Shown here: piece after piece, positions 7,293 to 46,654 of the stretch | Layout: each line of letters begins with the position of its first letter | How positions within the stretch are numbered: the first letter of the stretch is position 1 | Assembly: GCA_025765615.1 (NCBI GenBank) | Contig: JAIVFJ010000124.1 | Location: 124,001 to 188,000 of the forward strand | Direction of reading: 5' to 3' | Source of the DNA: Zopfochytrium polystomum | Taxonomy: Eukaryota; Chytridiomycota; Chytridiomycetes; Chytridiales; Chytridiaceae | Length of the DNA stretch: 64,000 bases | The notes under the pieces: generated by a model | Database searches by the model: none | Seen by the model: only the letters and a program-made list of their open reading frames with translations | What the model was told of the DNA's origin: nothing | Translations under genes and position numbers: made by a program

Positions 7293-7382
<90 letters not shown>

Positions 7383-14958: not shown

Positions 14959-15266
14959 TGTTATGAATCACCCTCTGGAAACCTCTGGAACCTTCTAGAA
15001 CATTCCTTCATGGAACCTTGTGGAACCTTCTGGAACCTTCTTTGCTTTCCTGACTTGTCTTGTTGTCATTGGTATCATTGGTATCATTGTATTACTAATT
15101 GCTCTTTCTGGAACTTTCTTGGAGTCTTGACAAGGAACACTCTCAAAAGGTATAAAAGGGGGATGGGGGACCTGTCCCATCCCTCAAGTGAATTATTGTT
15201 TCCAATACAATCATCACTCCTCTCAGTTCCTTGTCTGCCTTGTCCTGTCCTGCCCTGTTCCTGACA
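14959..15266 (+). repeat. Solo LTR of the chromodomain gypsy family (short LTR subtype)
   Basis: 308 bp, starting TGTTATGAATCACC and ending CCTGTTCCTGACA, flanked by the 5-bp target duplication GGTTA (14954-14958 and 15267-15271). It is nearly identical to the LTRs of the element at 37682-42986 but lacks a 45-bp segment present there. It keeps the TATAAAA box and GAA/TTC arrays. No internal gag-pol remains, so it arose by LTR-LTR recombination. Confidence 0.95.
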
Positions 15267-15989: not shown

Positions 15990-16118
15990 TGTTGGAAGAT
16001 GCAACCGCAAGAAGAAAAAAAAAAAAGAGAAGTTGATCACAGACTTGACTTGTCACACCCTCCCGTCCTCTCGCGACCACGATCACCATCACTCGTCTCA
16101 CCAACTCAGATTCCAACA
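15990..16118 (+). repeat. Copia 5' LTR
   Basis: 129 bp, TGTTGGAAGATG...GATTCCAACA. Unusually short for a copia LTR. Contains an A-rich run and a GATCACCATCACTCGTCTCA block shared with the 3' LTR. Confidence 0.93.
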
Positions 16119-16368
16119 CCTTACCAGGGAGAGCTCTCCAGAGCGGAGTCGAACTGAAGCCATCCAACACTTCAAGAAAGCAATCGTCTTCACCAGTCAA
16201 CTATACAGCCGCTGTTTTCAACCCCTCCTTGGCCGCCATCGATCACGTAATCTATTCTTTTATTCGAAGTGACAACCTATAAGTCAAGAATCCAATCGCT
16301 TAGTATCTCAATTCCATTTCAACCCCATCTGTCAGAACCCCCTTAACAAACCTTTTCCCTGACACAAT

Positions 16369-17700
16369 ATGAGCGTCAAACTAGTCCACCAGGCCCTCAA
16401 TAACCCCATCTACTTTGACACATGGTACGAAGACGTACTTGGCTATCTCGCTGGCAAGGATGCACTTGCTACTATTAGCCTTCGAGCAGCACGACGTGCC
16501 AGCACCGCCGTCGGCACAGCTGCCAGAGCTGGAGCTGGTGCTGGAGCTGCTGCTGGAGCTGCTGCTGGAGCTGCTGCTGGAGCCGGCCCTGCTGCTGCCG
16601 GTGCAGGATTCATCAACTGGACTGCTGCAGCACCCCCCGATGTGGAGTGATCAGTTGTCATGCGTATCCTCCCAGTACATGTACCCAATCATCCACAGTA
16701 TGTCGGCTACTGGACCTTCAGTGACGACGGAACTGTCTTTCCTGGAACCTATGCGCAAAACAAGCTGGCTATGATGCACATTCGGAATCATGTTGGCGAA
16801 AACCTCAAGCAAAAGATTAGTGGCATCTACTTTGTCTTCGAGGCCCTTGCCGAACTCAAGCGCAAAGTCAGCCGTGTCGACCCTCCACAGGTTATGAACC
16901 TTATTGACGAGTTCAAGAAACTCCACATTGGAGAGAAAGAAAGAATCGTGGACTTCCAGCAGAAATTTGAGACGCACTATGCATCCCTACAGCGTGCACG
17001 GGAACTCACTCCAATCGACATGCGCGACCAGATTGACATAACCCTAAGTTTTCGTTCTGCTGTCCATGTACTAAACCAAAGTTTCAAGAACAACAAATAC
17101 TGGTTTCCCCAAGTCAACCACTATATGAGCAAGATTGATGACGGCACCATCACAGACATCACTGGTCTGTTTGATTACCTGAAGATTATGGAGGCTCGCA
17201 ACCGCAACCCTGAAGACTTCGTGGAGCCACCTGCCGACCCAGTGAACGAGGCAGCCCTACTCAGTGGTCCCCAAGGTCGACGGAAGGATGGCCACTCCCG
17301 ACGGGCAGACAGGTCAGAGCGGCGTCATGCTTGCTTTGACTCTCGTGAGAACCAACGCAGCAACCGTCGGGAGAGGCCTCGTAAGGAACGACCTGACCGA
17401 GGTGGTCGCCAGAACCAGGAGCAGTCTGAGCGTCGCTGCAGCCAGAGAGAGAGGAACAGCAAGAACAACCCACCTGCAGCATCGGCAACTGTTGACCAAC
17501 AGCAACGAGATGCTTCAGTAGTTGACAGTGTTGTTGTCTGCCTCCAGTGTGGCCTCAAGAACCACTATGCCAGAGACTGCCTTGCAAAGAAAGCAGATGC
17601 TCCAGTTGCCCTTGTTGCAGCCCTGGACGCCTCGCAGTCTCTCAGCGAGTATGAGACTGAGTCTGACTGCAGTGATTCAGGGGAGTCAAATTTTCAGTAG
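16369..17700 (+). pseudogene. gag: Copia Gag with in-frame stop
   Basis: The frame begins MSVKLVHQALNN and continues through a TGA at 16651 to a TAG at 17698-17700. The N-terminal part includes a copia-like YFDTWYEDVLGYLAGKD segment and an Ala/Gly repeat. After the stop, the main Gag core (FEALAELKRKVSRVDPPQV and following helices) leads to a basic Arg-rich linker and a CX2CX4HX4C zinc knuckle (CLQCGLKNHYARDC). Gag would form the particle and bind the RNA. The TGA is one C-to-T change away from an Arg codon, in keeping with decay of this copy. Confidence 0.85.
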
Positions 17701-17722
17701 GCCCGAGGCCTCCACCTCGGGC
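17688..17722 (+). promoter_or_regulatory. Predicted -1 ribosomal frameshift signal at the copia gag-pol junction
   Basis: In the Gag frame the heptamer A-AAT-TTT occupies 17688-17694, one codon before the TAG stop. After a 6-nt spacer comes a perfect 8-bp stem GCCCGAGG (17701-17708) / CCTCGGGC (17715-17722) with a 6-nt loop. The protease frame (DTG at 17829-17837) is exactly -1 relative to Gag and is open across this site. Confidence 0.72.
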
Positions 17723-20700
17723 GCACCAAAAGAGAACCTCTAACTTCTGCTCTGCACCTCATGTTCCGAAATCTGTTGCCCTCCTCTCATCGCACTCAGC
17801 TGTCTTCAGAGAGTCCCCAATCGTTGTTGACACTGGCTGCCCAAGGACCATTCTCAAAGACCTCCACCTGTTCACCTCATACGAAGAGAAAGACTCTACT
17901 GTCGGCACCATAGATGAGGAGTCCCCACCACTCAAGACGAAGGGATCTGGCTCAGCGAGAATTCCTCTACCAAACGGTGTCGAAATTGTCATCAAGAAAG
18001 CATTCTATGCGCCAACTGCACTATACAGTCTCATCGCCACCAATGACATTGAGAGAGACAGGAAGTTCTTTGTCTCTATGGATGTGGATAAACCTGGCGC
18101 CATATTCAACAGAAGCGATAGAACTCCTGTTGGTCGTTGCACCAAACGTCTTGGGCTCCACTTCCTCGTCACCAAGAATTTGAGACTACACCGCCTCAGC
18201 CATGCCTCTGCTGCCATTATCGCCCTTGCCCACCGCGAACACTACCCAAGCCCAGACGGGCCACCACCTGTTGTGAGCAAGGCCGAAAGTCTCCGGATTG
18301 CAGAGGTTGAAAGACTTCATCGCGCCCTGGGACACGTCGGCTTCCAGCGCCTTGGCTACATGCTCCACCACCGGACGACAGCAGACCTACCACCCATCGA
18401 TGCTTCGTACCCCACAAAGTGCCAAACTTGCGTCGCTGCCAAGATGTGCCAAAAGCCATTCCCAGAGCGTGATGAGGAACAACTCCCGTTTGCCCACACC
18501 CTCAATGTTGATGTCAACTCTATCCCCATTACTTCCTTTGATGGCTACAACTATGCAATCACTGTCGTTTGCGAGAGCAGTTGTTTCTCTTGGGATATTC
18601 CTATTGCTTGCAAGAGCGATGCATTACCGTTTCTAATTCGCCTGATTCTCTTCCTTGAGAAAACGGAGGGACGCAAAGTGCAGGTCATCTGATTGGATCG
18701 TGGCAAGGAGAGCTTCAATCGGACCTTCAAGTCCTTCTGTGACTCCCATGGAATTCAGCTCAAGGCGTCTCCTTCACGCACAGCCCAGATGAACTCTGTC
18801 GCAGAACGCCACATCCAAACTGTCACAGACATGACCCGGTCACTTCTACTTGGCGCACCTAACGTTCCACTCACATTTTGGAGTTACGCTTACCGTCAAG
18901 CTTCGCAAATCAAGAACTGTCTACCAAACATCCAGCATGGCATCCTCTCTCCGTTCGAAAGCCGCCACCACATACCACCAATGGTTGGCCACTTTCGCAC
19001 CTTTGGCTCCAAGTGTTTCTACTGTGTTAGCCCCAAGCTTCGCAAGAAACTCAATCCCAAGGGCCGTCCTGCTGTTTACCTTGGCAGCCCCTCGCGCTCC
19101 ATTGCTGTCCTGTGGGAGCTCCAAGAGCAGCGGATCATCTACCAGCGTTATTGTGACATTGAGTTTTTTGAAGATTAATTCCCCCAGTTCTTGGGAGTTC
19201 ACGCTGTGAGGGGGGGATTTGGGGACATCAGCGTTAATCTCCCTTCACTTTCAGACTTGGATGACCCCGCATATGAGAAAGCAGTTCAATCAATTGTAGA
19301 TGCAGAACAGCACCTTCACCAGCTACTTCAGCAGAAAACCCAGCAGAAACAGCAGCGCCAAGGTAAGGGGGAGCACAGCAGCACACCAGCACCAGGACCA
19401 AAGAAGCGAGGTCGCCCATGCAAGCCATCATCACCAGTGAGGTTACCATCAGTGAGCATCTCAGCAGAGCCTCCACCACCAACAGCTGTGCCTGCACCAG
19501 ATGTCGAGCAGGAGCCACCCCCCAAACGGAAGCGCAGCACAACAAAGAAACCAGCAGCAGTTGGTGGGCAGGAGCCACCCCCTAAGAGGAAGCCAGGCTG
19601 ACCAAGGAAACACCCAATTCCACCTGACCCGGTGAGTCACTCCAAACTTCACTAAACTAATTCTTTCTTTTCTACACCATTCCCTTTTCAAATTTTCCCC
19701 TCACAACCAAAAACAATTCAAAACCATTAACGTCACCTCACGTCGCCCCACACTATCGCGCACAGGAAGCCTCAGCACCAGCCACTGCCGATGCCCCGGA
19801 GACCTTTCCGCCCAGCGACGCAAGGGGCAGTGGGCCCAGCGACCTGGAGAATTTGCCCAGGTCCAGCGCAGAGGCTCATCAGCAGGCGGGTCAGGATGGT
19901 GAGGGCCACGCTTGGGGGGGCCCTGCGTCGCCGGACGTCTCGAGTTCTCTATCCGCAAGGGGTATTGACAGGCCCAGTGGTGAAGTGGACCCCGCCGCAT
20001 CAGGCGAAGTGCTACCTGCTGACAGCGCTCCTGTTGTGCAAGATGTGCTGTTTGCGTGTGAGCCTGACGAGGACTTAGACGATAACGATATCCAGCCAGT
20101 CTACGAGTCTGACGCTGAAAATGAAGACAGACTCCTTTACGCCTTCAACGTCAACTCCAACTCAGTCAAAGTATCCCCAGACACATACAAGGATCCACTG
20201 ACGCACGAGGAGGCCATGGCATTGCCTCATGCAGAGCAGTGGAAGGAGGCTGAAGAGTACGAGCTGGATATGCTTCGCAAGATGGGAGTCTTTGTGGAGT
20301 CAGTAGCTCCGCCTGACACCAACATCGTCAGCTGCAAGTGGGTCTTCAAGCTCAAGTTCAAACCTGACGGCACCATTGAGCGGTTCCGTGCTCGACTTGT
20401 TGCTTGTGGATTCACCCAGCAGCCTGGCGTTGACTTCACCCTCACCTACTCGCCAGTTATTAGGGGCAACACACTTCGTTGGATGATTGCCCTCAGCACC
20501 CTGTACGGCTGGGACATGGAGATGATCGACATCTCCTCAGCCTACCTGTACGGGATCCTAGACATACCAATCTACATGGCACCACCACCTGGCGTATCGA
20601 TCTCCCCTGGACTAGTGTGGCTACTGCTGAAGGGTCTCTACGGGCTGAAGCAATCAGGACGGACTTGGTATCGGCGTCTAGCCCTCCACCTTCGGTCAAA

Positions 20701-22003
20701 AGGCTTTGCTCAGAGCTGGGCAGACCCCTGCCTCTTCTGGCGCCGGACCAAGTGCAGGCTCTGCTTCATTCTGGCGTACGTCAACGACCTTCCACTCTTT
20801 GGCCACACTGCTGCCATCAAGGAGGCTGTTGCAGACCTCAAGACGGAGTTCAAGCTTCGAGAGCTGGGAAAGCTCAGCTACATTCTCTCAATGGAAGTCA
20901 TTCGTGGTTCAAGCTTCACAATTCTCCATCAGACTAACTTCCTCCGGAACTTCCTCTCGCGCTTTGAGGCTAAGCACGGACCTGTAACGCCTCGCAACGC
21001 ACCACTCAAGGTAACAGCCAAGCTCACCCCTCGCGACTGGCACTCCACCGACCCAAGTGAGGAGAGCGTCAACAGCACTGAGTACCTCCATGTGATTGGC
21101 AGCCTTAACTACGCTGCAACGTCAACAAGACCAGACCTGGCACTCAGTGTCAGCTTGCTTGGTTCCTTTGCTCAAGACCCATGCATCCGGCACTGGCATG
21201 AGCTACTCGACGTTGTGGGGTATGTCAAGGCCACCTCCACAGTTGGACTTCGCTACAGCTCAGACAGGAACAACCAAGTTGTTGGCTATGCTGATGCATC
21301 GTACAACTCCCGCCACGACTCTCGCTCACAGATAGCATACCTGGTGCTATTAGCAGGGGGAGCCATAGCATGGAAATCAACAAGATCAGCAACTGTCCCA
21401 ACCTCATCCACAGCAGCAGAGTACATTGCACTCAGTGAGCTTGGTCGGGAACTTGAGGCCATCAACAACCTCCACCTATCAATCCAGCATCCCCTCAAGC
21501 TACCGATCATTGCCTACGAGGACAACACACCATCGATCCACATGACAGTTAACGACCTTCACACCGATCGCTCCAAGCACATCCGCCTTCGGTACCACTA
21601 CATTCGGTCACTTGTTGAGGAGGGACTTGTGCAAGTTGAGTATGTCTACTCGATGGACCAGCTTGCAGACCTCCTCACCAAGCCACATGGACGCGATATG
21701 GTCTACGAGGGCCGGACTCTACTTGGACTGGTTGACTCAACTGAGAAACCAAGACGATACATGCAACGTCACAAGAAAATCCTAGAGACAAGATCAAAAC
21801 GAGTGAGGAACATATTCGACAAAAGAGTATCAAGAAGAAGTAACAGAAGAACTTGGATCACGCTGTGGCGTGGAAGGTGCGGCTGGCTCGCCAAGGGAAA
21901 TCAGCAGGATAGGCCCAACAGGGAGGGGGAGGGCACTGGACAAACTTTCTTTACCTTTTGCCTTATTCGACTCTTCATGTATTTCCTATTCCTACCCTTT
22001 TGA
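17696..22003 (+). pseudogene. pol: Copia Pol (protease-integrase-RT-RNase H), broken
   Basis: Pol follows Gag in the -1 frame. Protease: SPIVVDTGCPRTI near 17814. Integrase: an HHCC-type zinc region (HRALGHVG...CQTC) near 18320-18430 and the catalytic core, interrupted by TGA at 18690-18692 exactly where copia integrases have a conserved SDNG/DRG strand. The frame closes at TAA 19179. A Pro/Lys/Gln-rich linker with an AT-hook-like KKRGRPCKP follows. RT and RNase H then continue in another frame to 22003, with CKWVFKLKFKPDG, FTLTYSPV, LYGLKQSGRTWYRR, GYADASYNSR and DLLTKP. The RT active site reads YVND (20777-20788) instead of YVDD. A 3' noncoding tail separates it from the LTR. Confidence 0.88.
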
Positions 22004-22185
22004 AGTTCACTCCTCAGCAGTATTTTCCCAGATATTTTCACTTCCTTTCCCTGCCACGGTTTTCCCAGATCGGCCAATTGATTTGGGTTTTTCATCCGAG
22101 CAGGGGCTTCAAGCACTCTTCCCCAGTTTCTTACCTCTGGAGGGTTTTGTTTGAAGTCTAGGAAGGGCGCGTGTGCAAGGGGGAG

Positions 22186-22313
22186 TGTTGGAATATGCCC
22201 CCACGAGAAGAAAAAAAAAAAAAGAAGTTGATCACAGGCTTGACTTGTCCCACCCTCCCGTCCTCTCACGACCACGATCACCATCACTCGTCTCACCAAC
22301 TCAGATTCCAACA
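22186..22313 (+). repeat. Copia 3' LTR
   Basis: 128 bp, TGTTGGAATATGCC...GATTCCAACA, about 93% identical by eye to the 5' LTR. Preceded by the polypurine tract at 22177-22185 and followed by GGTCA. Confidence 0.93.
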
Positions 22314-22747: not shown

Positions 22748-22876
22748 TGTTATGAATCACCCTCTGGAAACCTCTGGAACCTTCTAGAACTTTCCTTCAT
22801 GGAACCTTGTGGAACCTTCTTTGCTTTCCTGACTTGTCTTGTTGTCATTGGTATCATTGGTATCATTGTATTACTA
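22748..22876 (+). repeat. Truncated gypsy LTR fragment
   Basis: Starts TGTTATGAATCACC and matches the gypsy-family LTR through GTATTACTA, then stops abruptly. The TATA and downstream half are missing. It carries fewer GAACC/TTCTG units than the other copies. Confidence 0.88.
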
Positions 22877-37676: not shown

Positions 37677-37710
37677 AGGGGTGTTATGAATCACCCTCTG
37701 GAAACCTCTG

Positions 37711-37808
37711 GAACCTTCTAGAACATTCCTTCATGGAACCTTCTGGAACCTTCTGGAACCTTCTAGAACATTCCTTCATGGAACCTTGTGGAACCTTCTG
37801 GAACCTTC
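37711..37808 (+). promoter_or_regulatory. Heat-shock-element arrays in the LTR
   Basis: On an exact 5-bp grid the sequence alternates GAA and TTC: four units at 37711-37728, eight perfect units at 37736-37773, and six units (one mismatch, TTG) at 37781-37808. Heat shock factor binds inverted nGAAn repeats and three units normally suffice. The arrays lie 110-210 bp upstream of the TATA box. Confidence 0.75.
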
Positions 37809-37873
37809 TTTGCTTTCCTGACTTGTCTTGTTGTCATTGGTATCATTGGTATCATTGTATTACTAATTGCTCT

Positions 37874-37886
37874 TTCTGGAACTTTC
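37874..37886 (+). promoter_or_regulatory. Proximal three-unit heat-shock element
   Basis: TTC (37874-37876), GAA (37879-37881) and TTC (37884-37886) with 2-bp spacing, about 33 bp upstream of the TATA box. Conserved in the two solo LTRs. Confidence 0.6.
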
Positions 37887-37918
37887 TTGGAGTCTTGACA
37901 AGGAACACTCTCAAAAGG

Positions 37919-37925
37919 TATAAAA
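37919..37925 (+). promoter_or_regulatory. TATA box of the gypsy LTR
   Basis: TATAAAA followed by GGGGGATGGGGG. Predicted transcription start about 30-35 bp downstream, at or near 37954, which is where the self-primer sequence begins. Confidence 0.75.
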
Positions 37926-37953
37926 GGGGGATGGGGGACCTGTCCCATCCCTC

Positions 37954-38047
37954 AAGTGAATTATTGTTTCCAATACAATCATCACTCCTCTCAGTTCCTT
38001 GTCTGCCTTGCCCTGTCCTGCCCTGTTCCTGACATCATAATTCACTT
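37954..38047 (+). promoter_or_regulatory. Self-priming pair: RNA 5' end and primer binding site
   Basis: AAGTGAATTAT at 37954-37964 is the perfect reverse complement of ATAATTCACTT at 38037-38047, which begins 2 nt after the 5' LTR. Pairing stops exactly at 11 nt on both sides. No tRNA-type primer binding site is seen. This matches the Tf1/sushi self-priming mechanism, in which the first ~11 nt of the transcript prime reverse transcription. Confidence 0.78.
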
Positions 38048-38074
38048 CACCCTCTCCCACTACTCTCTGCCATC

Positions 38075-38998
38075 ATGTCTGACCCAAACAACACCTTCCC
38101 TGATGCAACTGCCTTCCAAGCCTTGATGGACCAATTACAAGCCCTTTCAAGACAGACACACCAACTTCAAGAACAAGTCCTTCACCAGCAGCACCAGCTT
38201 CAACAACAACTTCACCAACAAGAACATCAAGCTCTTCCCCTGCCTCAAGCCAACCAAGCAAGAGAGCCCAAGGTTCCCAGCCCTGACAAGTTCACTGGGC
38301 TGGCCAAAGACCTTAGGAACTTCATGGCCACTGTGGAGAATGTCATCCTTCTCCAACCTTCAAGATTTCCCAGTGAGCAAGTCAAGGTTCTTTTCACAAG
38401 CACCCTCCTGTCTGGTCAAGCTCAATCATGGTACAGATCTCTCCCAAGCACACCCACCACCCTGCAAGAGCTCTGGGAGGGGCTGGAAGCTACCTTTGGT
38501 GACCCCTACGCATCTTGGACAGCAAGATCCAAGCTCAAGCATATCAAGCAAGGAAAGCAATCTTGTGTGGCCTACACCAACCAATTCAAGCAACTAGCCA
38601 GAGACTCTGGATACAATGATGCAGCTCTGATGGAGCTGTACCATGATGGTCTCCATGAGTCTATCCAAGACATGCTCTCCCAGTCTCTGCACATCCCTGA
38701 GACCTTGGAAGAGTACATTCTCCTTGCCATCAAGATTGACAACAGACTCTACTCCAAGAGGCTGAAGCAAAGACAAGTAGGAACTACATCAAGACCTACC
38801 CCAGTTCCTCAAGCTCTTACAGTTCCTGAACCCATGCAAGTGGATGCAGTTGAGACACTTCCTAAGGGTCCTCTGAGCCAAGAGGAGAAAACAAGGAGGG
38901 CCCAGCAGGGACTGTGTTTTTACTGTGGCTCCAAGGAGCATGCTGTCAAGGACTGCCCAAGGAAGAAGCACCCAAACTCCCAGGTCCAGGCTCACTGA
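38075..38998 (+). CDS. gag: Gypsy Gag (capsid/nucleocapsid)
   Basis: 307 aa. The N-terminus is a Gln-rich coiled coil (LQEQVLHQQHQLQQQLHQQE). The capsid region matches retrotransposon Gag: PDKFTGLAKDLRNFMATVE, then LLSGQAQSWYRSL and LWEGLEATFGDPY. The C-terminus carries a CX2CX4HX4C knuckle (CFYCGSKEHAVKDC) followed by PRKKH. The start at 38075 is the first ATG after the primer site. The stop TGA is at 38996-38998, just after the frameshift heptamer. Confidence 0.95.
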   Translation: MSDPNNTFPDATAFQALMDQLQALSRQTHQLQEQVLHQQHQLQQQLHQQEHQALPLPQANQAREPKVPSPDKFTGLAKDLRNFMATVENVILLQPSRFPSEQVKVLFTSTLLSGQAQSWYRSLPSTPTTLQELWEGLEATFGDPYASWTARSKLKHIKQGKQSCVAYTNQFKQLARDSGYNDAALMELYHDGLHESIQDMLSQSLHIPETLEEYILLAIKIDNRLYSKRLKQRQVGTTSRPTPVPQALTVPEPMQVDAVETLPKGPLSQEEKTRRAQQGLCFYCGSKEHAVKDCPRKKHPNSQVQAH

Positions 38999-39034
38999 GG
39001 GGCAATTCCCTGGACCCTCCTCCAAGCTGCCCCT
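38971..39034 (+). promoter_or_regulatory. Predicted -1 frameshift site with H-type pseudoknot at gag-pol
   Basis: The heptamer C-CCA-AAC (38971-38977) is in register with Gag. After 5 nt, stem 1 is GGTCCAGG (38983-38990) with CCTGGACC (39009-39016). Its loop contains AGGGGCA (38998-39004), which is complementary to TGCCCCT (39028-39034) downstream, forming stem 2. Slipping back one base enters the pol frame (reading LPGPGSLRGN), and the Gag stop lies inside the structure. Confidence 0.85.
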
Positions 39035-42000
39035 GTTTCATCACCACCACCAGCACCACAAACACCTCAGATTCCAAGCCCCACCAACTCACCATGGATG
39101 TCAAGATTCAACTCTCACCCAAGTCAACCATCACAACCAAGGCCCTTATAGACGCTGGATCATCCTGCAACATCATTGATGCCACCCTTGCCAAGTCTTG
39201 TGCCATTCCCACCACCAAGAAATCCACACCCCTCAAGGTCCACTTTGCCAATCATGCTCTGTTCAAGGAAATCAGCCATGAAACCAAGCTAAACCTCCAC
39301 ATCCAAGACTTTCCACCATCCATGGTCAATCTGGAAGTATTGGATCTTGGCTCACCCACATTCTCTGTCATCCTGGGATTACCATGGCTGCAAGCCCAGA
39401 ACCCTGCCATTGATTGGGTCACTGGTCAAGTCCAACCTCCACCAATCGGAACAGTCACCCAAAACTCAAGTCAAGCCCCCAAGTCTCATGCTCTCAAGCC
39501 CTTGATTCAAGATTCACAGCCAGCCAAGACTCCAGTTCCACAGTTCACAGTTCACAGTCAAGATTCAAGTAGAGCTCATAGAGCTCACAGTCATGGCCAT
39601 GACTCTTGTTCACAGAACCCACAGTCAAAGATTCAAGTACCACAGTTCACAGTCCACATTCAAGATTCAAGTTCCACAGCTCACAGTCTTTGCCAAGAAC
39701 AGAACTCTCAGTCAAAGATTCAAGAATCACAGTTCCCAGTCAAGAATTCAAGCCCCACTGCTGAGGAGCACGACAACCTGGACCCATCAGACCTTTTGCT
39801 GGCATCCAAGCTACCAAAAGAATATCTCCCTTATGCTGATGTGTTTTCCAAGACCAAGGCAGACCTGCTACCAGCTCAGAGGCCTTATGACTGTGAAATC
39901 CCACTCAAGGATGAAACTTGCAGCCCACCTTTCAAGCCACTGTACCACCTCTCTCCACCAGAAGCCAAGGCCCTCCAAGAATACATTGAAGAAATGCTGA
40001 ACAAGGGATTCATCCAACCTTCCAAGTCACCAGCTGGAGCTCCCATCTTTTTTGTCAAGAAGAAGGATGGGGGACTGAGACCCTGTGTGGACTACAGAGA
40101 TCTCAATGAGATGACAGTCAAGAACCGCTATCCACTGCCTCTCATCTCTGAATTACTGGACAAACTGAGCCATGCAAGGATATTTTCCAAGATTGACCTC
40201 AGAGGTGCCTACAATTTGGTCAGAATTAAGCCCCAGGATCAATGGAAGACTGCCTTCAGATGCAAATACGGTCACTTTGAGTACTTGGTCATGCCCTTTG
40301 GACTTACCAATGCTCCAGCTATTTTCCAAGGCATGATGAATGACATCTTCAGGGATATTCTGGACCTTTTTGTCATTGTCTACCTGGATGATATCCTGGT
40401 ATTTTCATCTGACACTGCAAGCCATATGGGACATGTCAAGACTGTCTTGGAGAGACTCAGACAGCATCACCTCTATGCAAAGCTGGAGAAGTGTGAATTC
40501 CACAAGACCTCCATTGAGTTTTTGGGGTTCATTGTGTCTGACAAAGGGATCTCCATGGCACCAGACAAGATCCAAACTATTCTTGAATGGAAGGCTCCAA
40601 ATTCCATCAAGGATGTTCAAAGCTTCCTTGGATTTTGCAACTTCTACAGAACCTTCATTGCCAACTATTCTGCCATAGCCAAGCCTCTCACTGATCTCAC
40701 CAAGAAGACCACCAAGTTTGAATGGACCCCAGCAGCAGAGCAAGCCTGGCTAGCTCTTAAGACAGCAACCACAAGTGCACCACTCCTTAAGCATGTGGAT
40801 CCCTTGCTTCCCTTCACCTTGGAAACTGATGCCTCAGACTATGCCCTTGGCGCTGTTCTGTCCCAGCCAAGCTCTCAGGACCCCTCTGCTCCTCTGCATC
40901 CAGTGGCATATTACTCCAGGAAGCTGAACAGTGCTGAGTGTAACTACACAGTCCATGACAAGGAGTTGCTTGCAATTGTGGATGCATTCAAATTCTGGAG
41001 ACACTACTTGGCTGGTTCTAAAGGCATCTCTGTCTATTCTGATCACAAGAACCTCACCTTCTTCAGGGCAAGGAGGTTGCTCAAGCAGAGGCATGCCAGG
41101 TGGGCTGAACTGCTCTCTGAGTATGACTTTAAGCTGTGCTATTCTCCTGGCCACCTTAACACTGTGGCTGATGCCCTGTCAAGAAGAACAGACCTTGCAC
41201 CTGAAGGGGGAGATGGTTTCACCCCACCATCCAAGACACACCTTTCATTGCTTCCTGACAGTGTGTGGGCCCATGCTATTTCCAAGGACCCCAAGCCTCA
41301 CAAGATTCAAATCAGCCAAGAAGAGGAAAAACTTGAGATACTCAAGACAAGGCATGATGCAGCAACAGCTGGACACCCAGGAGAGCACAAGACATATGAG
41401 CTTGTTTCCAGAGACTTCTACTGGCCAGGCATGAGGAAGTACATCAAGAACTATGTCAGCAGCTGTGAAACCTGTCAAAGAAACAAATCCAGCAGACACA
41501 AGCCCTATGGACTTCTGGAGCCCCTCCCAATTGCCATCAGCCCTTGGTCATCAATATCCATGGACTTCATTGTGAAACTGCCCCCATCCCATGGATTTGA
41601 CTCTATCCTTGTTGTCATCTGCAGAAGGACAAAGTTGGCCCATTTCATCCCCTGCACTGAGAATATAGATGCACAAGGAACAGCAGACCTGTTTTTGCAG
41701 CACATATTCAGGCTCCATGGGCTGCCTCAGTCAATCGTCAGTGACAGAGGACCACAGTTCAGATCTCAATTTTGGAAAGCACTCACAGCAGCCCTTGGAA
41801 TCAAGTCTCAACTGTCAACTGCTTATCACCCTCAGACTGATGGACAAACAGAAAGAACAAACCAGACTCTGGAGCAGTATTTGAGGTGCTATGTCAGCTA
41901 TCAACAGGATGATTGGCCCACCCTCCTTCCACTGGCAGAATTTGCTCTCAACAATTCTCTCCACTCAAGCACCCAGCTATCTCCTTTCTTTGCAACCTAT

Positions 42001-42633
42001 GGCTTCAATCCAAGAGGAGATCTTCTGGGACAAGAGACCCTATCCAATGTCCAAGCTCCTGCTGCGGCTTCACACTTACATAAGCTCAAGATCATCAACT
42101 CCTTCCTGGACTCCACCCTGAAGCAAGCCCAAGAAGATGCCTCAAGATTTGCCAACACTCACAGAATGGACCATGACCTTGCTGTGGGTCAGCAAGTTTG
42201 GCTTCTGAGGAAGAACTTGCAGACCAAAAGACCAAGTCCCAAGCTAGACAACCTCAAGTTGGGACCTTTCAAGATCTTGGAGCAAATCAATCCAGTCACC
42301 TTCAAGCTGGATCTCCCTGCATCCATGAAGATCCACCCAGTTTTCCATGTCAGCCTTTTAGAGAAGTTTGTGGCCAATTCCATTCCAGGCAGAGTTGTTC
42401 CTCCTCCTCCTCCAGTTGAGGTAGAAGGTGAAGAGGAATTTGAGGTTGAACAAATCTTGGATGCCAAGTGGTTTGGAAGAACACTCAAGTTCCTTGTTAA
42501 GTGGAAAGGTTACTCAGATGCTGACAACACCTGGGAGCCTGAGTCAAACCTCACTCACTGCCAAGACCTTCTGCTCGAGTTCAAGACCAGGTACCCCACC
42601 AAGTTGCAGAAGAGGCCTAAAAGGGGGAGATGA
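38977..42633 (+). CDS. pol: Gypsy Pol (protease, RT, RNase H, integrase, chromodomain)
   Basis: Pol is expressed as a Gag-Pol fusion of ~1,519 aa through the -1 shift. Protease: ALIDAGSSCNIIDATLA (DAG in place of the usual DS/TG). RT: PLYHLSPPEAKALQEYI, KKKDGGLRPCVDYRDLN, LRGAYNLVRI and FVIVYLDDILVFS (catalytic Asp pair near 40387). RNase H: LETDASDYALGAVLSQ. Integrase: zinc region HDAATAGHPGE...CETC (41354-41480) and catalytic core MDFIVKLP, SDRGPQF, QTDGQTERTN. A GPF/Y module (LGPFKILEQINPVTFKLDLP) follows, then a chromodomain (VEQILDAKWFGRTLKFLVKW, then GYSDADNTWEPESNL), which in chromoviruses steers integration to marked chromatin. The TGA stop at 42631-42633 abuts the 3' LTR. No internal stop is seen. 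Confidence 0.96.
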   Translation, partial: LPGPGSLRGNSLDPPPSCPCFITTTSTTNTSDSKPHQLTMDVKIQLSPKSTITTKALIDAGSSCNIIDATLAKSCAIPTTKKSTPLKVHFANHALFKEISHETKLNLHIQDFPPSMVNLEVLDLGSPTFSVILGLPWLQAQNPAIDWVTGQVQPPPIGTVTQNSSQAPKSHALKPLIQDSQPAKTPVPQFTVHSQDSSRAHRAHSHGHDSCSQNPQSKIQVPQFTVHIQDSSSTAHSLCQEQNSQSKIQESQFPVKNSSPTAEEHDNLDPSDLLLASKLPKEYLPYADVFSKTKADLLPAQRPYDCEIPLKDETCSPPFKPLYHLSPPEAKALQEYIEEMLNKGFIQPSKSPAGAPIFFVKKKDGGLRPCVDYRDLNEMTVKNRYPLPLISELLDKLSHARIFSKIDLRGAYNLVRIKPQDQWKTAFRCKYGHFEYLVMPFGLTNAPAIFQGMMNDIFRDILDLFVIVYLDDILVFSSDTASHMGHVKTVLERLRQHHLYAKLEKCEFHKTSIEFLGFIVSDKGISMAPDKIQTILEWKAPNSIKDVQSFLGFCNFYRTFIANYSAIAKPLTDLTKKTTKFEWTPAAEQAWLALKTATTSAPLLKHVDPLLPFTLETDASDYALGAVLSQPSSQDPSAPLHPVAYYSRKLNSAECNYTVHDKELLAIVDAFKFWRHYLAGSKGISVYSDHKNLTFFRARRLLKQRHARWAELLSEYDFKLCYSPGHLNTVADALSRRTDLAPEGGDGFTPPSKTHLSLLPDSVWAHAISKDPKPHKIQISQEEEKLEILKTRHDAATAGHPGEHKTYELVSRDFYWPGMRKYIKNYVSSCETCQRNKSSRHKPYGLLEPLPIAISPWSSISMDFIVKLPPSHGFDSILVVICRRTKLAHFIPCTENIDAQGTADLFLQHIFRLHGLPQSIVSDRGPQFRSQFWKALTAALGIKSQLSTAYHPQTDGQTERTNQTLEQYLRCYVSYQQDDWPTLLPLAEFALNNSLHSSTQLSPFFATYGFNPRGDLLGQETLSNVQAPAAASHLHKLKIINSFLDSTLKQAQEDASRFANTHRMDHDLAVGQQVWLLRKNLQTKRPSPKLDNLKLGPFKILEQINPVTFKLDLPASMKIHPVFHVSLLEKFVANSIPGRVVPPPPPVEVEGEEEFEVEQILDAKWFGRTLKFLVKWKGYSDADNTWEPESNLTHCQDLLLEFKTRYPTKLQKRPKRGR

Positions 42634-42986
42634 TGTTATGAATCACCCTCTGGAAACCTCTGGAACCTTCTAGAACATTCCTTCATGGAACCTTCTGGAA
42701 CCTTCTGGAACCTTCTAGAACATTCCTTCATGGAACCTTGTGGAACCTTCTGGAACCTTCTTTGCTTTCCTGACTTGTCTTGTTGTCATTGGTATCATTG
42801 GTATCATTGTATTACTAATTGCTCTTTCTGGAACTTTCTTGGAGTCTTGACAAGGAACACTCTCAAAAGGTATAAAAGGGGGATGGGGGACCTGTCCCAT
42901 CCCTCAAGTGAATTATTGTTTCCAATACAATCATCACTCCTCTCAGTTCCTTGTCTGCCTTGCCCTGTCCTGCCCTGTTCCTGACA
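42634..42986 (+). repeat. Gypsy 3' LTR
   Basis: 353 bp, apparently identical to 37682-38034, including the heat-shock-element arrays and TATA box. Transcription from it could run into 42987 onward. Confidence 0.96.
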
Positions 42987-42991
42987 AGGGG

Positions 42992-44854: not shown

Positions 44855-45355
44855 CCTCAGAGTATTGTCCCTCTGAATGTTCATTCTTTGTGTTTGAGAT
44901 CCCTGTTAGACAGATCAGTAGGGATACTTCGTGGACTAGGCAAGTAGTAGGGTTGAAACACCCCCTATGTTATGAATCACCCTCTGGAACCTTCTGGAAC
45001 CTTCTAGAACATTCCTTCATGGAACCTTGTGGAACCTTCTGGAACCTTCTTTGCTTTCCTGACTTGTCTTGTTGTCATTGGTATCATTGTATTACTAATT
45101 GCTCTTTCTGGAACTTTCTTTGAGTCTTGACAAGGAACACTCTCAAAAGGTATAAAAGGGGGATGGGGGACCTGTCCCATCCATCCCTCAAGTGAATTAT
45201 TGTTTCCAATACAATCATCGCTCCTCTCAGTTCCTTGTCTGCCTTGTCCTGTCCTGCCCTGTTCCTGACACCCTAGACAACAGCCCAATAAAGTTAGTTT
45301 TAGCCTATTATTTGCTTTCCCTCACTCTAGAGCCCAGATCCCAGGGTCAAAGGAT
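44855..45355 (-). repeat. Dispersed repeat family 1, copy split by a solo LTR
   Basis: The reverse complement matches 3735-3935 in two blocks: 45271-45355 and 44855-44967. Between them lies the solo LTR 44968-45270. Removing the LTR and one copy of CCCTA restores a continuous match to the copy at 3735. Confidence 0.8.
44968..45270 (+). repeat. Solo LTR of the gypsy family, nested in repeat family 1
   Basis: 303 bp, TGTTATGAATCACC...CCTGTTCCTGACA, with 5-bp target duplication CCCTA (44963-44967 and 45271-45275). Its 5' array holds six perfect alternating GAA/TTC units. It has a TATAAAA box and a CCATCCATCC variant where other copies have CCATCC. Confidence 0.95.
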
Positions 45356-46582: not shown

Positions 46583-46654
46583 AGGCCGCACCCGGAATCG
46601 AACCGGGGTCCCCAGAATCAGAATCTGATGTGATAACCCCTACACTATGCAGCC
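46583..46654 (-). tRNA. tRNA-Gln (anticodon CUG)
   Basis: Read on the minus strand from 46654: acceptor GGCTGCA pairs with TGCGGCC (one G-U), D-arm GTG...CAC with AGGGGTT, anticodon stem TCAGA/TCTGG around loop TTCTGAT (anticodon CTG), variable GGAC, T-arm CCCGG-TTCGATT-CCGGG, and discriminator T as in fungal tRNA-Gln. No intron. A B box (GGTTCGATTCC) and an A-box-like TAGTGTAGGGG are present. Confidence 0.93.

Follow-up and report, generated by a model that had tools for sequence, protein, structure and literature searches.

Phased heat shock element arrays in the LTRs of a Ty3/gypsy chromovirus family of Zopfochytrium polystomum suggest a heat-shock-type promoter

The U3 region of an LTR retrotransposon of the chytrid Zopfochytrium polystomum was found to carry a long array of heat shock elements (HSEs) in a single register upstream of its TATA box, and this array recurs in most of the sampled copies of the family, among which it has grown by whole modules. 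We consider it quite probable, from the layout of the sequence, that U3 is a heat-shock-type promoter through which heat shock factor (HSF) would drive the element under heat or proteotoxic stress, and that duplication of a module adds further HSEs to it. The evidence comes from a stretch of 64,000 nucleotides (the window), to which all coordinates without a contig name refer, and from a survey of the host genome (80.16 Mb, 761 contigs), which encodes HSF genes and bears the same grid upstream of many sampled heat-shock genes.

A Ty3/gypsy chromovirus with identical LTRs

The element occupies positions 37682-42986 and is bounded by the TSD AGGGG (37677-37681, with the 3' copy at 42987-42991). 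Its two LTRs of 353 bp (TG...CA; 37682-38034 and 42634-42986, plus strand) carry the same array and are identical over 353/353 bp, so the insertion is probably recent. Between them lie a gag ORF (38075-38998, plus strand; ATG at 38075, frame open from 38033), which matched PF03732 with an E value of 2e-12 (query 38078-38998), and a pol ORF without internal stops (38866-42633, plus strand). When searched in three pieces, pol matched PF13650, PF00078, PF17917, PF17921, PF00665, PF24626 and PF00385. Because these matches comprise a protease, RVT_1, RNase H, integrase, a Tf2-1-type SH3 and a C-terminal chromodomain, the element is, judged by its PR-RT-RH-IN order and terminal chromodomain, a Ty3/gypsy chromovirus. 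Membership in the ONSEN/COPIA78 family was rejected, given the presence of RVT_1, the position of integrase after RNase H and the chromodomain, which differ from the Ty1/copia order with RVT_2. Gag and pol overlap at 38866-38998, with pol in the -1 frame relative to gag, and pol is likely to be expressed by a -1 frameshift within this overlap.

A tRNA-primed element is expected to have a TGG next to its LTR, and no TGG adjoining the LTR was found in element 37682-42986. The 11 nucleotides ATAATTCACTT at 38037-38047 (plus strand) are perfectly complementary to AAGTGAATTAT at 37954-37964 (plus strand), an extent of complementarity that was reached once when the 20 nt following the LTR were shuffled 5000 times. 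We take the former as the probable primer-binding site of an element that would prime itself Tf1-style, by pairing of this site with the 5' end of its own mRNA. The self-priming complement in turn predicts a transcript start at 37954, which is the start named in the earlier note on this DNA and lies 35 bp after the first T of the TATA box. At the other end of the element, a putative polypurine tract, AAAAGGGGGAG (42619-42629, plus strand), precedes the 3' LTR.

The window also contains a Ty1/copia element (RVT_2; 16016-22313) with terminal repeats near 16016-16118 and 22211-22313, and a tRNA-Gln (CTG) at 46583-46654 on the minus strand. The copia element, taken as a single control from another LTR element, held no 4-unit HSE match with up to one mismatch.

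A phased HSE array upstream of the TATA box

The distal array (37711-37808, plus strand) is composed of GAA/TTC units set in a single 5-bp register and forming runs of 4, 8 and 6 units that start at 37711, 37736 and 37781, respectively. Seventeen of these 18 units are perfect, the sole exception being the TTG at 37786. A further 3-unit element, TTCTGGAACTTTC (37874-37886, plus strand), sits off the distal register and 32 bases 5' of TATAAAA (37919-37925, plus strand). Rereading of the letters and a register scan both returned the runs and the 3-unit element that the earlier note had described. Its array start of 37711 holds for the runs, but the register itself already begins with a perfect unit at 37701 and an imperfect one at 37706, so that the whole distal array spans 37701-37808. 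Two putative CCAAT boxes (minus strand, ATTGG on the plus strand; 37836-37840 and 37845-37849) are set in a 9-bp repeat, TCATTGGTA. All these HSEs are thus placed in U3 and upstream of the TATA box, and array plus proximal HSE account for 121 of the 272 bp of U3 as defined by the predicted start at 37954. With an HSE defined as at least three inverted nGAAn units in 5-bp steps, the runs of 4, 8, 6 (one unit imperfect) and 3 all qualify, and the motif is the canonical HSE, as had been claimed.

Such a grid is far from random expectation. The motif GAANNTTCNNGAANNTTC with up to one mismatch occurs at 25 sites in the 64-kb window, whereas 100 shuffles averaged 0.32 sites and never exceeded 2. When the 353-bp LTR was dinucleotide-shuffled 5000 times, the longest run obtained was 4 units (in 3 shuffles), against the 8 observed. 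These shuffles of the LTR alone rule out the grid as a chance outcome of a GAA/TTC-rich composition. Across the 22 register slots the three core positions carry the consensus letter in 21, 21 and 20 cases, and the flanking positions are variable.

TRF reports the array as a 10-bp and 45-bp tandem repeat, and since the array is also a 10-bp repeat the unit counts given above are not independent of each other. This repeat structure, together with the different lengths of the array in different copies, is what would be expected of a minisatellite grown by slippage in the LTR and devoid of any regulatory role. We regard this explanation as very unlikely, because the cores are conserved but the flanks vary, and because a separate 3-unit HSE is found just before the TATA box, outside the repeat; two further observations that disagree with it are described below.

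Genome-wide occurrence of the array

The earlier note had stated that the arrays are also present in both solo LTRs of the window. Arrays are indeed there, but the further LTR copies are three, not two, and their arrays are shorter and lack an 8-unit run. A solo LTR of 303 bp (44968-45270, plus strand; TSD CCCTA) contains runs of 6, 1 and 4 perfect units, a second one of 308 bp (14959-15266, plus strand; TSD GGTTA) has a short array with runs of 1, 4, 1 and 4 perfect units, and a truncated LTR (22748-22876, plus strand) retains a 4-unit run in an array 10 bp shorter. Every run of at least 4 units in the window falls inside an LTR copy.

In the whole genome, exact GAANNTTCNNGAANNTTC was found at 7339 sites, against 10 for a reversed-pattern control; this motif is its own complement, so both strands yield one and the same number. 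A seven-unit pattern gave 994 + 993 matches on the two strands, and 0 in the control. As an 8-unit run produces one seven-unit match per strand and longer runs produce more, these matches correspond to somewhat fewer than 1000 runs. The TATA core, with up to 2 mismatches, was matched 1082 + 1111 times (2193 LTR promoter cores; control 1 + 0), the LTR/primer-site junction (up to 1 mismatch) 325 + 342 times and the polypurine/3' LTR junction (up to 2 mismatches) 311 + 341 times. Exact matches to the end-of-array motif and to the extra HSE module numbered 850 + 907 and 502 + 491, respectively. Subtracting both junction classes from the 2193 LTR cores leaves about 870, a rough estimate given the unequal mismatch limits, which indicates that many copies are solo or truncated.

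The earlier note had named absence of the grid from most other family copies as grounds for giving up its reading. Among 100 LTRs with an exact TATA core listed on contigs C1-C8, a sample picked by that core and not by HSEs, the exact array motif lay upstream in 82 and was absent in 18, so that most copies in this sample retain the grid. It was present in 29/29 of the listed LTRs paired at full-length spacing (4.7-5.2 kb), some of these pairs coming from a tandem array on contig C6; this regular presence also argues against the minisatellite explanation. The genome-wide site counts and the other LTR copies rule out that the grid is peculiar to the copy at 37682.

On contig C1, all 19 of the listed 4-unit clusters corresponded to LTR copies (11 identified by sequence, 8 by an LTR-specific motif), and one LTR copy, at C1:309794, was without a listed 4-unit site. 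Judged from C1 and the window, where their share was counted, LTR copies seem to account for nearly all of the genome's perfect 4-unit HSEs. This overwhelming concentration in one family (7339 sites against 10 in the control, the 19 clusters on C1 and all window runs of at least 4 units) would also suit arrays that serve chiefly as a sink or decoy for HSF, damping the heat-shock response of the host, and not as a promoter. We find this hardly credible as their main role, as the arrays are in promoter position beside CCAAT and TATA boxes, in an element whose two LTRs are identical; a decoy effect would be a by-product and leaves unexplained why the element carries the arrays.

At C6:360003-372705, five LTR cores recur at an exact period of 3171 bp, and primer-site and polypurine junctions repeat with that period too, a pattern resembling shortened elements arrayed in tandem with common LTRs. 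Similar periods were seen at C6:235305-240498 (1725 bp), near C11:43193-50966 (4016 bp) and at C18:210468-218809 (4160 bp). In addition, an integrase-chromodomain fragment on a 1473-base JGI contig (P0001) is 77% identical to that of the element, and a second one (P0002) 66%.

Modular growth of the array

To follow the variation of the array, 23 LTR copies were compared, comprising the 5 of the window, the 7 best matches to the LTR at 37682 and 11 from C1 retrieved via the 4-unit pattern, a sampling that favours intact arrays. Array lengths in all 23 copies were 58, 68, 113, 123 or 158 bp. All of these are 3 mod 5, so every insertion or deletion preserves the register, a regularity toward which a 10-bp tandem repeat tends by itself, through 5- or 10-bp gains and losses (slippage or recombination). 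A 45-bp module is present in zero, one or two extra copies per LTR, and one LTR (L072) has a distinct 55-bp duplication. The longest perfect run of a copy comprised 4, 6 or 8 units, two 8-unit runs, 10 units or 12 units, the two longest single runs being those of 10 (C6:486911-486958) and 12 units (C5:43355-43412).

The 8 distinct arrays comprise 149 register slots, of which 120 are perfect, and they have their imperfect slots in common; no new core loss in the distal array was found in any of the 23 copies. Variation is confined to spacer letters, except in the solo LTR at 44968, where a slot otherwise imperfect has the sequence of a perfect unit. Of 18 distinct LTRs, 14 have an intact proximal HSE; it is damaged in three (L075, L076 and L077) and missing in the truncated copy at 22748. 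Gain of modules may have been favoured by selection; in the listed sample, LTRs with an extra module were not shown to be commoner among the full-length-spaced pairs (13/29 vs 23/71, Fisher P 0.26).

HSF and heat-shock genes of the host

The host genome yielded 14 matches to the HSF_DNA-bind family. The best-scoring frame (L009, contig C19) aligned to the solved DNA-binding domains of HSF2 and HSF1, with the best E value (2e-25) for HSF2, and retains the fVRQLNMYGF stretch; over 62% of the query, it shares 99% identity with DFJ73DRAFT_616553 of Z. polystomum. The host therefore encodes an HSF whose DNA-binding domain is conserved. Three partial HSF DNA-binding domains (C7:485101, C459:28671 and C655:3016) have near-equal scores and coincide in their domain positions; each contains one in-frame TAG, as if they had been multiplied by a repeat.

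We then looked at the regions upstream of heat-shock genes, for which 20 of 33 HSP20 matches, 15 of 58 HSP70 matches and two HSP90 genes were sampled, taking up to 1.5 kb per locus (455 bp for L058) from 37 domain starts, 54,455 bp in total. In these sequences, runs with three or more perfect units (between which units with a single mismatch were tolerated) numbered 20, whereas 20 shuffles gave a mean of 0.9 and a maximum of 2, and a single such run was present in the 62,530 bp of the window outside LTRs. Many of the HSP20 loci and two HSP70 loci are near-copies, and hence the 20 runs are not independent cases. The grid was found upstream of 16/20 HSP20, 4/15 HSP70 and 0/2 HSP90 loci fetched. 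Within the 1.5 kb or less searched at each, both HSP90 domain starts, 11/15 HSP70 loci and 4/20 HSP20 loci lacked an upstream HSE run, and where HSP genes are split the true promoter may fall outside the stretch considered. That many host heat-shock genes share the grid agrees with its reading as an HSE and is hard to reconcile with a minisatellite.

Typical sites of these genes, such as GGAATTGTCCAGAAACTTCC and CGAACGGTCTGGAACATTCT, consist of four units, one of them imperfect. Four consecutive perfect units were not found at any of the HSE sites upstream of the sampled HSP loci, which indicates that the LTR HSEs are stronger than those of the sampled heat-shock genes. The possibility that the HSEs upstream of HSP genes are themselves LTR insertions was discarded, as blastn of the LTR matched none of loci L034-L071. 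A large set of HSP20 genes (L037-L049 and L055) has an identical domain start (AETDAGYVVHADLPG), which suggests that small heat-shock proteins have expanded recently in an HSE-flooded genome.

The presence of several HSF-type domains, as seen in the 14 matches, would also allow an HSF-family protein to bind the array but to activate chiefly in a constitutive manner or under other stresses (as Hsf1 with basal occupancy, or a Skn7/Sfl1-type protein), heat not being the main trigger. The Hsf1 of one yeast is reported on its targets under basal conditions (PMC6047955), and the CCAAT and TATA boxes could support basal transcription. We nevertheless judge this unlikely, since the perfect contiguous runs of 4-12 units exceed the 4P class that is tied to the largest heat responses of Brassicaceae COPIA elements (PMC5059998).

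Discussion

A heat-driven promoter would work as follows. From the predicted start, U3 reads as a distal array at -243 to -146, two CCAAT boxes, the proximal HSE at -80 to -68 and the TATA box. Under heat or proteotoxic stress, trimers of the host HSF would bind cooperatively to the distal array, whose 18 units offer room for up to six trimers, and also to the proximal HSE. Bound HSF would then increase transcription from 37954, as HSFA2 does at ONSEN, and because this transcript also serves as the genome that is reverse-transcribed, heat would raise transposition as well. Tandem duplication of a 45- or 55-bp module would provide extra HSEs with the register unbroken. On the strength of this promoter anatomy, heat probably activates the element. 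Its copies may have scattered heat switches over the genome, and solo LTRs could possibly act as heat promoters for neighbouring genes.

A much broader scenario can be put forward tentatively and with some doubt. One retrotransposon family would supply nearly all perfect HSEs of its host, from a promoter grown by duplication of an HSE module, and would be the largest set of HSF targets on heat. Its bursts would have contributed to one of the largest chytrid genomes, and its solo LTRs would recruit neighbouring genes to the heat response or draw HSF away from heat-shock genes. The genome is very large for the phylum (80.16 Mb here). Cladochytrium polystomum, which we take to be the same species because the references of PMC9926174 include the Zopfochytrium genus paper, is listed in that work with 81.2 Mb, the largest chytrid genome in the set, and 12.3% TEs.

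HSF control of transposons has been shown in plants and animals, and the present, probably fungal family is a candidate for the same kind of control. The copies form a natural dose series of HSEs, making it testable whether HSE number sets the heat response of a transposon. A second testable question is whether a genome-wide flood of HSEs alters the host's own heat-shock response.

Comparison with known systems

The principle is known from ONSEN in plants and from HSE-bearing Helitrons in nematodes; what is new is the combination, the length of the array, the amplification of modules and the apparent genome-wide dominance. A literature search, with most subscription journals outside its coverage, found no published report of HSEs in a chytrid retrotransposon. 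The DIRS-1 element of Dictyostelium has a heat-shock promoter. DIRS-1 is a tyrosine-recombinase element (PMC3266345), and MAGGY of Magnaporthe is a retroelement reported as heat- or stress-responsive (PMC3978060, in whose main text the phrase 'heat shock element' does not occur). The present family resembles both in being a retroelement, responsive to heat or stress in those cases and predicted to be so in this one.

Among fungal LTR elements, the Cryptococcus elements TCN12 (one putative HSE in the LTR) and TCN3 (two) are mobilised at 37 C, according to a 2026 paper which considers heat-shock-induced TE activation via host machinery undescribed in fungi (PMC12810828). The chytrid element is likewise a fungal LTR element with putative HSEs, but here nearly half of U3 is HSE array. 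In Tf1 and Tj1 of Schizosaccharomyces, the mRNA of the element is complementary at its 5' end to the primer-binding site, as first shown for Tf1 (PMC4600332). The chytrid element has a Tf2-1-type SH3 by Pfam and, if its transcript starts as predicted, would share this self-complementary arrangement; no HSE array is mentioned for Tf1/Tj1 in the available part of that paper.

In C. elegans, Helitrons supply 61.4% of the HSEs (11,527 of 18,766), and Caenorhabditis Helitron HSEs go with up-regulation of nearby genes (PMC6927752). The likeness lies in a mobile family supplying most HSEs of a genome, as the chytrid family appears to do; Helitrons, however, are DNA transposons, whereas the HSEs described here would be the element's own promoter.

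The ONSEN group offers a parallel in the LTR itself. The ONSEN LTR is bound by HSFA2 and heat-activated (PMC3907296), and the LTRs of ONSEN/ATCOPIA78, COPIA37, TERESTRA and ROMANIAT5 have nTTCnnGAAn heat-responsive elements (PMC5059998, PMC3907296). These plant COPIA elements carry clusters of about 3 to 6 nGAAn motifs, and COPIA78, for example, has 55 copies in A. lyrata (PMC5059998). The element described here is, like these, an LTR retrotransposon with heat-responsive elements in its LTR, here predicted from sequence; unlike these plant COPIA elements, it is a chytrid Ty3 chromovirus with perfect runs of 4-12 units, amplified modules and 2193 LTR cores.
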